The notes under the pieces were generated by a model that made no database searches, had not been told where the DNA came from, and worked only from the letters and a program-made list of their open reading frames with translations. Shown here in pieces: positions 1,681 to 57,392 of a DNA stretch of 64,000 nt (position 1 is its first letter; each line of letters begins with the position of its first letter). A program made the position numbers and the translations under genes. This DNA is from Haloplanus rubicundus (lineage in GTDB: Archaea > Halobacteriota > Halobacteria > Halobacteriales > Haloferacaceae), in the NCBI RefSeq assembly GCF_003342675.1, contig NZ_CP031148.1, positions 1,922,001-1,986,000 of the forward strand. The letters run 5' to 3'.

Positions 1681-1766
1681 CTCGTACGGTTTGCTGTGAA
1701 TCCGTATCGGTGGTTCGCCAAGACGGACGAGCGAACCACCGGTACACAGTCACAACAATCGTCTCA
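1678..1766. repeat. Stop-codon-anchored palindromic element, copy A
   Basis: Begins with the trmJ stop codon and ends in CGTCTCA. Inner arms CGGTGGTTCGC (1708-1718) and GCGAACCACCG (1731-1741) are perfectly complementary around a 12-nt loop. Outer arms TTGCTGTGA (1691-1699) and TCACAACAA (1750-1758) pair with one mismatch. Related copies lie at 25873-25908, 37632-37717 and 57305-57392, all against the stop codon of a gene. It could act as a transcript-end structure or be a small non-autonomous repeat. Confidence 0.8.
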
Positions 1767-25813: not shown

Positions 25814-25872
25814 GTGTAATGGTAACTCGTGTCAGAACATAACTCTTCATGCGATTCGTCGCCCCGTCTCGG

Positions 25873-25908
25873 CGAACCACCGGCACACAGTTACACCAAA
25901 CCGTATCA
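25873..25908. repeat. Stop-codon-anchored palindromic element, copy B (left half degenerate)
   Basis: The right half is well kept: GGCGAACCACCGG, then ACAGTTACACCAA, then CCGTATCA whose last three bases are the stop codon of the amidohydrolase gene on the minus strand. The inner left arm survives as GATTCGTCGCC about seven bases earlier; the outer left arm is gone, possibly overwritten by the uspA promoter. Confidence 0.7.
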
Positions 25909-34646: not shown

Positions 34647-34671
34647 CCATGTGTGGTACTGTCACACATGG
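34647..34671 (+). promoter_or_regulatory. Inverted repeat overlapping the TRAM-protein start codon
   Basis: CCATGTGTG (34647-34655), seven-base spacer, CACACATGG (34663-34671). The nine-base arms are perfectly complementary and the right arm contains the ATG start (34668-34670). As RNA it would hide the start codon in a hairpin; as DNA it would be a dyad operator at the transcription start. Confidence 0.65.
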
Positions 34672-34877
34672 TCGATCGCCCCGTCACGACCGGCGAGACG
34701 CACGTCGTCGCCATCGAGGAACTCGGTTCCGAGGGCGACGGCGTGGGGTACGTCGACGACTTCGCGGTGCTCGTCGACGACGCCGCACTCGGCGAGACGG
34801 TACGGGTAGAGATTACGGCTGTGGGGTCGAACTTCGCGCGCGGCGAAGTCGTCGACGCCGAGTTCGGCTTCGGCTGA
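34668..34877 (+). CDS. Stand-alone TRAM-domain RNA-binding protein
   Basis: 69 residues. TGETHVVAIEELGSEGDGVGYVDDFAVLV then GETVRVEITAVGSNFARGEVV is a complete TRAM (beta-barrel, OB-like) domain, the same unit found in TrmA-type and MiaB-type tRNA enzymes. Free-standing archaeal TRAM proteins act as RNA chaperones. The start codon lies in a nine-base inverted repeat, so feedback on its own mRNA is possible. Its TGA is the first codon of another palindromic element. Confidence 0.9.
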   Translation: MVDRPVTTGETHVVAIEELGSEGDGVGYVDDFAVLVDDAALGETVRVEITAVGSNFARGEVVDAEFGFG

Positions 34878-34957
34878 TACTGCCGGCTGTAAGTCAACCG
34901 AGATGTCCGTCACCCCGGGGCGAGGGATATCTTGAAACAGTTACAGCCGACAGTATG
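34875..34957. repeat. Stop-codon-anchored palindromic element, second subtype (copy D)
   Basis: TGA of the TRAM gene begins the element: TGATACTGCCGGCTGTAA on the left and TTACAGCCGACAGTAT (34941-34956) on the right. Arms of 16 bp match with one mismatch around about 48 bp. The sequence differs from copies A, B, C and F, but the layout is the same: a stop codon at the outer end, long arms, and a central region with lower conservation. Confidence 0.75.
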
Positions 34958-35064
34958 AGGCGGATACGTGGTCCCCGGCGGTCGTCGACCACGGGCGGCG
35001 ACGCTCGATACGGGCGCGGGCCGACGGGGATAGTGGCTTATCCGACGGGGCCGAACGGGGAGTG

Positions 35065-36133: not shown

Positions 36134-36874
36134 ATGCGCCTCACTTTCCTCGGCACGGGGAGCGCGATGGCCCTCCCGGACCGGGCACAGACCGGCCTGT
36201 TGCTCGAACGCGACGACCGTCGGGTGCTCGTCGACTGCGGCGCGGGCGTCCTCCATCGCCTCGCCGCCACCGACCCCGGCTACGAGGGCGTCTCGACCGT
36301 CCTCCTCACCCACCACCACCTCGACCACGTCTCCGACCTCCTCGCGCTCGTGAAGGCGAGGTGGCTGGCCGGCGCGGGCGGCATCGAAGTCGTCGGTCCC
36401 GACGGAACGAAGGCGCTCGTCGACGACCTGTTCGACGCCTTCGACTACCTCGACGGCCGGGTCGACGTGCGCGTCCGCGAGGTGGGCGCCCACGACTTCT
36501 CCGTCGCCGGCTTCGACGTGTCGGCCCACGAGACGCGCCACTCCGTCGACGGTCTCGCCTACCGATTCGACGGCGACGAGGGCGACCTGACGATCAGCAG
36601 CGACACCGAGGCGTTCGAGGGGCTCGCGGCCTTCGCCGACGGCTCCGCCGTCTTCGTCCACGACTGCTCGTTCCCGGACGACGTGGACGTGTCGAACCAC
36701 CCGACGCCCGCGAAACTCGGCGACGCCCTCGCGGGCCACGACTACGGCCGCGTCTACCTGACCCACCTCTACCCCCACACCGAGGGGCGCCACGAGGAGA
36801 TGCTCGACTCGCTGGCACGACGCTACGACGGCGACGTGCGGTTCGCGCGGGACGGGTTGCGGGTGGAGTGTTGA
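36134..36874 (+). CDS. Metallo-beta-lactamase fold phosphodiesterase (RNase Z/ElaC-like)
   Basis: 246 residues. MRLTFLGTGSAMALPDRAQT is the typical RNase Z-like start; THHHLDHVSDLLAL near residue 58 is the zinc motif. Further ligands are HETRHSVDGLAYRF near 135, SSDTEA near 155 and LTHLYPH near 212. It lacks the exosite arm of true tRNase Z, so cyclic-nucleotide or other phosphodiester substrates are likely. Its TGA begins the palindromic element shared with the convergent gene. Confidence 0.85.
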   Translation: MRLTFLGTGSAMALPDRAQTGLLLERDDRRVLVDCGAGVLHRLAATDPGYEGVSTVLLTHHHLDHVSDLLALVKARWLAGAGGIEVVGPDGTKALVDDLFDAFDYLDGRVDVRVREVGAHDFSVAGFDVSAHETRHSVDGLAYRFDGDEGDLTISSDTEAFEGLAAFADGSAVFVHDCSFPDDVDVSNHPTPAKLGDALAGHDYGRVYLTHLYPHTEGRHEEMLDSLARRYDGDVRFARDGLRVEC

Positions 36875-36954
36875 GACGGGAACCGTAGCTGTCGGTCGCT
36901 GCTCGTCGTCGCGGGACGGCCGAGCAGCGACCGTGACCTCCGATCACCGTCTCA
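36872..36954. repeat. Symmetric palindromic element holding the stop codons of two convergent genes (copy E)
   Basis: Outer arms TGAGACGG (36872-36879) and CCGTCTCA (36947-36954) are perfect complements and contain the stop codons of the plus- and minus-strand genes. Inner arms CGGTCGCTGCTCG (36893-36905) and CGAGCAGCGACCG (36921-36933) form a 13-bp perfect stem around 15 nt. TGAGACGG/CCGTCTCA equals the end of copies A and F. Confidence 0.8.
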
Positions 36955-37230
36955 TATCACGTCCTCGGGATCGTGTTCGGCCGCCATCCGCCGCGCTTCG
37001 GCCGCGTACGCCTCGCGGTCGTCGGGGGCGGTCGACCCCAGATTCTCCGGGGCGGCGTCGACGGCGGCGGTGGTGTCCCGCACGTCCGAAAACGAGGTGA
37101 GCGAGCGCTCCTTCCGGAAATACTGCTCTCCGTCCGGCGTCGCGTAGGTGAGGATGACGATGTTCTGTTCGTCGTCGGAGTACGTTCTCTCGACCAGCCA
37201 GACGCGGATGGCGTCGTCGCTGTCGGTCAT
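36952..37230 (-). CDS. Conserved haloarchaeal small protein, unknown function
   Basis: 92 residues, acidic. AIRVWLVERTYSDDEQNIVILTYATPDG forms two strands, then REAYAAEARRMAAEH a helix. No cysteine, signal or membrane segment. I do not recognise the family. It ends inside the symmetric palindromic element and is followed upstream by an independent lipoprotein gene. Confidence 0.7.
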   Translation of the reverse strand: MTDSDDAIRVWLVERTYSDDEQNIVILTYATPDGEQYFRKERSLTSFSDVRDTTAAVDAAPENLGSTAPDDREAYAAEARRMAAEHDPEDVI

Positions 37231-37269: not shown

Positions 37270-37635
37270 CTACGCGGCCCGCGCGCGATTCAGTTCGACC
37301 GAGCCGTCGGCGCCGACCACCACGTCGAGCTGGTTGAACCACTCCTCGGAGCGGAACGTCTCGTCGAGCGCCGATTCGCCGTCGACGCGGGCCGTCACCC
37401 GGTAGCGACCGGGTCGCCACGGCGTCGTGCCGAGTTCCGCGACGCCCTCGGCGTCGACGGTGACGGCGTTCTCGATCACTACCCGTTCGTCGCGGGCGAT
37501 TCGCACCGCGACGGTGTGGCTCGTGTCGTCCCGATTCACCGCGAGCGACGTGATCGGATCGCCCGGCCCGCCGGTACAGCCGGCGAGGGGGAGCGAGCCG
37601 AGGAGCGCGAGCAGGCGACGGCGCCGCACGGTCAT
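37270..37635 (-). CDS. Small secreted lipoprotein with an immunoglobulin-like domain
   Basis: 121 residues. MTVRRRRLLALLGSLPLAGC is a Tat-like signal with a lipobox Cys at residue 20. The mature part has alternating beta strands (HTVAVRIARDERVVIENAVTV, GRYRVTARVDGE, QLDVVVGADGSVEL), suggesting a small Ig-like or carboxypeptidase-regulatory-like domain. Function unknown. Its start lies at the left edge of repeat copy C, so the promoter must be within or overlap the element. Confidence 0.75.
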   Translation of the reverse strand: MTVRRRRLLALLGSLPLAGCTGGPGDPITSLAVNRDDTSHTVAVRIARDERVVIENAVTVDAEGVAELGTTPWRPGRYRVTARVDGESALDETFRSEEWFNQLDVVVGADGSVELNRARAA

Positions 37636-37717
37636 ACGGTTTAGTGTAAATCATTATCAGTGGTTCGCCGAGACGGTCCGGCGAACCACCGGTAACCAGT
37701 TACACTAATCCGTATCA
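37632..37717. repeat. Stop-codon-anchored palindromic element, copy C (most complete)
   Basis: Nested perfect arms: GTGGTTCGCC (37660-37669) with GGCGAACCAC (37680-37689), and TTAGTGTAA (37641-37649) with TTACACTAA (37700-37708). The right edge CCGTATCA contains the stop codon of the isopentenyl phosphate kinase gene; the left edge TCATACGG touches the start codon of the lipoprotein gene. It fills the whole spacer between two genes read leftward. Confidence 0.85.
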
Positions 37718-38446
37718 GTCGATCCGCGTCCCCGGTTCGCCGCCCGCGAGGAAGGGTTCGAGGTCGTCGGCGCCGAAGACGTAGGCGGGGGCGTCGAGGT
37801 CGAGGAGGGTTCGCACCTTGCCGGCCATGCCGCCGGTCACGTCGGTGGCGTCGCTCCCGCCGAGGGCGTCGGCCACGGCGTCGAAGTCCGTGATCCGGTC
37901 GATCACGGCTCCGTCGGCGTCGTAGACGCCGTCGACGGTCGAACAGAGCCCCACGCGGTCGGCGTCGAGAGCGTCGGCGAACCGCACGATCACCTCGTCG
38001 CCGGAGATGATTGTCGTGCCGTGCCCCTCGTGGGCGATGACGTCGCCGTGGGCCACGGGGACGAACCCCTCGCCGACCATCCGCTCGACCGCCGGTAGCG
38101 GCATCTCGAGCGTTCCGTCGGCGTCGCGGGCGCCCGTCGAGAGCGGGTGGACGGGGAGGGCGGGCACGTCCCGGTCGTGGAGCCGCGAGAGCACGAACCG
38201 ATTGAGGGTGGTCATCGAGCCGTGGATTTCGAGGGCGGCGCCGGCCTCGTGGGTCCCCTCGCTCACGCTCACGCCGTGTTTCTCGGCGTAGTGGTGGCCG
38301 AAACTCCCGGCGCCGTGGACGAGGGCGAGGTCGTCGGCCGCCGCGGCGATGGCGTCGGCCGCCGCGTCCAGCGCCGCGCCGTCCAGCGTCTCCGCGCGCT
38401 CCTTGTCCGTGATCAGGCTCCCGCCGAGTTTGAGAACGGTCGTCAT
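37715..38446 (-). CDS. Isopentenyl phosphate kinase
   Basis: 243 residues of the amino-acid-kinase fold. VLKLGGSLITDKER near residue 5, VHGAGSFGHHYAEKHG near 44 with the catalytic His characteristic of IPK, GDVIAHEGHGTTIISGDE near 133 and DVTGGMAGKVRTLLDL near 200. Phosphorylates isopentenyl phosphate to IPP, the last step of the archaeal alternative mevalonate route for membrane lipids. Overlaps the mevalonate kinase stop by ATGA (38443-38446). Confidence 0.93.
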   Translation of the reverse strand: MTTVLKLGGSLITDKERAETLDGAALDAAADAIAAAADDLALVHGAGSFGHHYAEKHGVSVSEGTHEAGAALEIHGSMTTLNRFVLSRLHDRDVPALPVHPLSTGARDADGTLEMPLPAVERMVGEGFVPVAHGDVIAHEGHGTTIISGDEVIVRFADALDADRVGLCSTVDGVYDADGAVIDRITDFDAVADALGGSDATDVTGGMAGKVRTLLDLDAPAYVFGADDLEPFLAGGEPGTRID

Positions 38447-57304: not shown

Positions 57305-57392
57305 TGCCCGTACGGATCGGTATCACTCGGTACCGGTGGGTCGCCGACCAGCCTTGCCGAACTACCGGTACACGTTACGACGAACCGTCTCA
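57305..57392. repeat. Stop-codon-anchored palindromic element, copy F (divergent)
   Basis: The right edge CCGTCTCA includes the stop codon of the gene at 57390-57821. Left arm GTACCGGTGGGTCGCC pairs with GCCGAACTACCGGTAC at 13 of 16 positions. The left part starts with CGTACGG, as in copy A. It is the most decayed full-length copy. Confidence 0.65.

Follow-up and report, generated by a model that had tools for sequence, protein, structure and literature searches.

Why do two convergent genes of Haloplanus rubicundus both end on the edges of one palindrome? The element lies in a 64,000-nucleotide stretch of DNA (the window), and an earlier note on this stretch had named a two-sided terminator shared by the two transcripts as its simplest role. 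The genome carrying the window (G000; 3.77 Mb) was compared with those of eleven congeners. The features discussed are listed in table 1.

The palindrome and its junction

The structure attributed to the element in the earlier note is confirmed. The octamers at its ends, TGAGACGG and CCGTCTCA, are exact reverse complements, the gene that runs into each edge has its stop codon there (TGA and, on the forward strand, TCA), and the inner stem pairs over 13 bp with no mismatch. This stem is unique in the 64-kb window among perfect stems of at least 13 bp with a loop of less than 20 nt. The arms of the palindrome are 34 nt each and 79 per cent complementary overall. The predicted fold has an energy of −57.5 kcal/mol (z = −5.9), and none of 200 shuffled sequences folds as well. 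Taken alone, the end octamer occurs in the window about as often as expected by chance (5 matches against 4.7). It had been equated with the edges of two other palindromes, copies A and F; the identity is exact for F (57385–57392), and the edge of A (1759–1766) reads TGAGACGA, which agrees in seven of eight positions.

Table 1. Features of the focal junction and copies of the palindrome family in the window (window coordinates).
Feature	Position	Strand	Remark
MBL-fold hydrolase, ribonuclease Z-like, 246 aa	36134–36874	+	match below NCBIfam cut-offs; stop TGA 36872–36874
92-aa protein, function not assigned	36952–37230	−	stop is the minus-strand TGA 36954–36952
Palindromic element, 83 bp	36872–36954		very probably a diverged copy of the family with 80-bp core and 3-bp target site duplication
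Left edge TGAGACGG	36872–36879	+	its TGA is the stop of the MBL-fold gene; family edge consensus TSATACGG
Right edge, TGAGACGG on the minus strand	36947–36954	−	its TGA is the stop of the 92-aa gene
Inner stem, 5′ arm CGGTCGCTGCTCG	36893–36905	+	
Inner stem, 3′ arm CGAGCAGCGACCG	36921–36933	+	
CTGT motif of one arm	36889–36892	+	adjoins the inner stem, as in the family
GTCA motif of the other arm	36934–36937	−	adjoins the inner stem, as in the family
Family copy (A of the earlier note)	1682–1766		not at a stop codon
Weak, probably decayed family copy	25823–25908		25.1 bits, E = 0.002
Family copy TGA..TGA	34875–34958		left TGA is the stop of a TRAM-domain gene (34668–34877)
Family copy TCA..TCA	37632–37717		right TCA is the stop of an isopentenyl phosphate kinase gene (37715–38446, −)
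Family copy (F of the earlier note)	57308–57392		right TCA is the stop of a minus-strand ORF

The MBL-fold gene has its closest named relatives in Haloplanus. The 92-aa protein gave no NCBIfam match and no significant Pfam match, and its gene adjoins the MBL-fold gene in several Haloplanus genomes. In five of these, G009, G001, G008, G007 and G002, the same convergent pair is present and the junction is empty: the two stop codons overlap or are separated by about 10 bases or fewer, with no palindrome. Before its stop, the 92-aa protein ends in DVI in the genomes compared, or in DII in one of the relatives. The 83 bp are thus specific to G000 in the sample compared, even against the nearest relative, G009, whose MBL-fold protein is 95–96 per cent identical. 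With five empty relatives, loss of the element from them rather than its gain in G000 is unlikely. A deletion scar was considered at the G009 junction and rejected, its resemblance to the right arm of the element being limited to seven bases. The empty site of G009, GTGTGACCTATATTACG, does not join cleanly to the G000 flanks, so that the original duplication at this locus cannot be read off. In G008, three copies of the family described below surround the MBL-fold gene (locus L305, positions 2498, 4106 and 5980), although the focal junction itself is empty.

A dispersed family of palindromes

Alignment of the other palindromes of the window revealed a shared layout: an 80-bp core (TACGG...CCGTA) with outer arms, an internal loop in which GTCA and CTGT do not pair, and an inner stem. 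The open-access papers searched contain no account of such a family. A covariance model was built from 30 copies, the focal copy being left out. In a search of the window, it matches the focal element at exactly 36872–36954, over model positions 1–86, with a modest score of 31.4 bits (E = 5.9e-5). The earlier suggestion that the edge, and not the sequence of the stem, is the conserved signal agrees with this end-to-end placement. It agrees also with the copies found in other haloarchaeal families, which have other inner stems (for example CGGCGCAACCGC in place of CGGTGGTTCGCC) and the same ends, TGATACGG...CCGTATGA. Within Haloplanus, 11 of 30 pairs are changed on both sides.

A covariance model of the family gives at least 148 matches in G000, counted on both strands, which correspond to at least about 75 places. 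All the matches listed are on the main chromosome contig (C2), and none on the smaller contigs C1 and C3. The family is present in all 12 Haloplanus genomes, with copy numbers from very few to large (the highest counts are lower bounds), and in 36 of the 119 sampled genomes of the taxonomic family, representing 11 of 28 genera. Plasmid-borne copies occur in Haloplanus, Halomicrobium, Natronomonas, Halomontanus, Natrinema and Natrialba. This patchy distribution fits a mobile element. Several copies in G008 are identical and lie at different sites, a sign of recent movement.

The copy at 37632–37717 is also found in G009, at the same place, and the orthologous copies differ mostly on one side only; resident copies thus seem, from this comparison of sequences, to decay without compensation. 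Two copies about 0.9 kb apart occur at locus L127 (1501–1586 and 2368–2516; G000 contig C2 near 712796). The second is apparently interrupted by other sequence and ends at the stop of an MsrA-like gene; a nested insertion is possible.

Among 170 genomes of the taxonomic family, none yielded a close DNA relative of the focal element, the numerous weak hits being short GC-rich matches. Rfam has no family at its position, and phages gave no match. Arm matches in viral contigs were AT-rich chance hits with no palindrome.

Target triplets and stop codons

At three loci with clean flanks (L148, L149 and L157), a single TGA or TCA in G009 corresponds in G000 to triplet, 80-bp core and triplet, the triplets being partly altered by later mutation. 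Identical triplets stand at the two ends of 81 of 116 copies, against a mean of 39.5 and a maximum of 56 when the partners are shuffled. TGA/TGA and TCA/TCA account for most of them; TAA or TTA is seen in a few. The terminal triplet of the family is therefore a 3-bp target site duplication, TSA.

In 90 of 116 copies (78%), namely 53 of 67 in G000 and 37 of 49 in other genomes, an ORF has the duplicated triplet as its stop codon when ORFs are called with a codon-usage score trained on the long ORFs of G000; with a stricter and simpler score, the count is 80 of 116. Public annotation of distant haloarchaea, including plasmids, also places the start of the element at an annotated stop, as for a glycoside hydrolase of Halomicrobium, a PHP-domain protein of Halomontanus and an archease of Natrinema.

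Stop codons make up 20 per cent of the TGA sites open to insertion without gene disruption. The target preference is palindromic over 9 bp, GNC-TSA-GNC, and is seen also at insertions away from stop codons. Weighted by this preference, the expectation for stop codons rises to 40–50%. Part of the stop-codon bias is thus due to the GNC-TSA-GNC preference plus selection. The excess over an expectation of 50 per cent has P < 1e-9, a value that ignores shared descent, the approximate nature of the gene calls and selection on gene ends. For these reasons, recognition of stop codons as such by the mobilising machinery, beyond the 9-bp preference and for instance through action at the 3′ ends of genes while transcription or translation terminates, is only possible and, in our judgement, rather unlikely; if real, it would account for the difference between 78% and the expected 40–50%.

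Origin of the focal copy and known systems

We conclude that the focal element very probably belongs, as a diverged copy, to a mobile, MITE-like palindrome family of haloarchaea. In this family, the 80-bp core is inserted at a 3-bp TSA target, which is duplicated; as the duplicated triplet is usually a stop codon, the upstream gene regains its stop. A DDE-type transposase acting in trans may have moved the focal copy into the TGA stop of the MBL-fold gene. The right-hand duplicate would later have changed from TGA to TCA, with some change in the flanks, and the changed triplet would have given the convergent 92-aa gene its TGA stop on the other strand. The present end triplets, TGA and TCA, form an inverted and not a direct repeat, i.e. 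the copy's own duplication is not intact.

A bidirectional terminator, kept for its function at the end of two convergent genes, appears improbable. It would explain the strong hairpin, which can form on either strand, and the position of each stop at an edge of the element. It would also have a precedent in Haloferax volcanii, where 59% of transcripts ended at a hairpin in one reporter test (PMC7237163). The main intergenic termination signal of that organism is, however, a T stretch (PMC7237163), and no terminator-like stem with the 3′ T tract of archaeal intrinsic terminators was found at the element on either strand. The element is moreover missing in five relatives with the same gene pair, so that the search for compensatory changes proposed in the earlier note found no stems kept at the junction, but simply no element. 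Among the 116 copies, the focal one alone bears the stop of a neighbouring gene at each of its two edges; serving convergent genes is therefore not a trait of the family. In E. coli, stalling of ribosomes has been reported for REPs near a stop codon (as cited in PMC12306157). By analogy with this report and with the H. volcanii hairpin, a side-effect of the element on transcript ends or translation is plausible, and termination by the hairpin alone is possible; any such role would be a by-product of the hairpin carried by the mobile palindrome.

The hairpin could also have formed locally between the two genes, with a likeness to the family that is due to chance. Its inner stem has a sequence of its own, it opens with GACGG where the family has TACGG, and the search of 170 genomes yielded no close DNA relative. 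Accepted copies elsewhere also vary in the inner stem, however, and the model built without the focal copy aligns it end to end at the family boundaries. The length is 83 bp against 86 bp for a typical copy, and CTGT and GTCA stand beside the inner stem as they do in the family. A chance likeness is thus very unlikely. We consider equally that a palindrome of the REP or IS200/IS605-derived (PATE) kind, which a tyrosine (HUH) transposase would mobilise in single-stranded form, is a highly improbable source. Hairpin form and extragenic position would suit such an element, GTAG-tagged REPs do supply TAG stop codons (PMC3733652), and PATEs are common in Haloquadratum (PMC3119063). Yet the family has inverted terminal repeats, which PATEs lack, and it makes a 3-bp target duplication, whereas IS605-type elements and PATEs make none (PMC3119063).

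For the mobile palindrome, no transposase was found. G000 yielded no longer partner that shares its arms, and arm searches in a further five Haloplanus genomes gave no autonomous one; each unpaired arm inspected in G008 proved to be part of a full palindrome. The pair at L127, about 1 kb apart, was considered as an autonomous partner and rejected, being two distinct copies that flank ordinary genes. Such searches would overlook a partner with no more than a few terminal bases in common, and we therefore call the class MITE-like and not MITE. In the IS1031 subgroup of the IS5 family, target duplications are 3 bp long and of the form TNA. The palindrome family has a 3-bp target of the same form, a link by analogy only; five Haloplanus genomes contain no IS5-type DDE_Tnp_1_2 genes.

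Where genes are densely packed, an element that duplicates a stop codon can spread and leave them unbroken, and it can remodel their ends and 3′ UTRs at dozens of sites. Together with the empty sites of close relatives, the family constitutes a natural set for studying how, in archaea, termination, translation and mRNA stability respond to a hairpin directly behind a stop codon. It also poses the concrete question of the transposase by which the palindrome is moved.

Among described elements, SMR-A and SMR-B of Haloquadratum walsbyi are likewise haloarchaeal and mobile, 80–110 bp long, with terminal inverted repeats that are not related to those of any known transposon and a mobiliser that is not known (PMC3119063). 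In contrast to our family, which duplicates 3 bp and lies at gene ends, they are reported to make no target duplication and to lie mainly inside other mobile elements (PMC3119063). GTAG-tagged REPs are also palindromes near gene ends, and their termini often supply the stop codon TAG (PMC3733652). They differ in being 20–40 bp long and in their association with RAYT tyrosine transposases (PMC3733652); the family copies measure 86 bp, their consensus has no GTAG tag, and the stop codon is the duplicated target triplet rather than a part of the element. With MITEs, the family shares short length, non-coding sequence, terminal inverted repeats, target duplication, many copies and presence or absence between close relatives: the whole element, TACGG...CCGTA, is palindromic, the family duplicates a 3-bp TSA (no longer intact in the focal copy), and its 83–86 bp, too short for a transposase, occur at no fewer than about 75 places in G000. 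The searches described above gave no parent transposon sharing its ends, and it differs from MITEs in its nearly perfect palindrome and in a target duplication that is mostly a stop codon.
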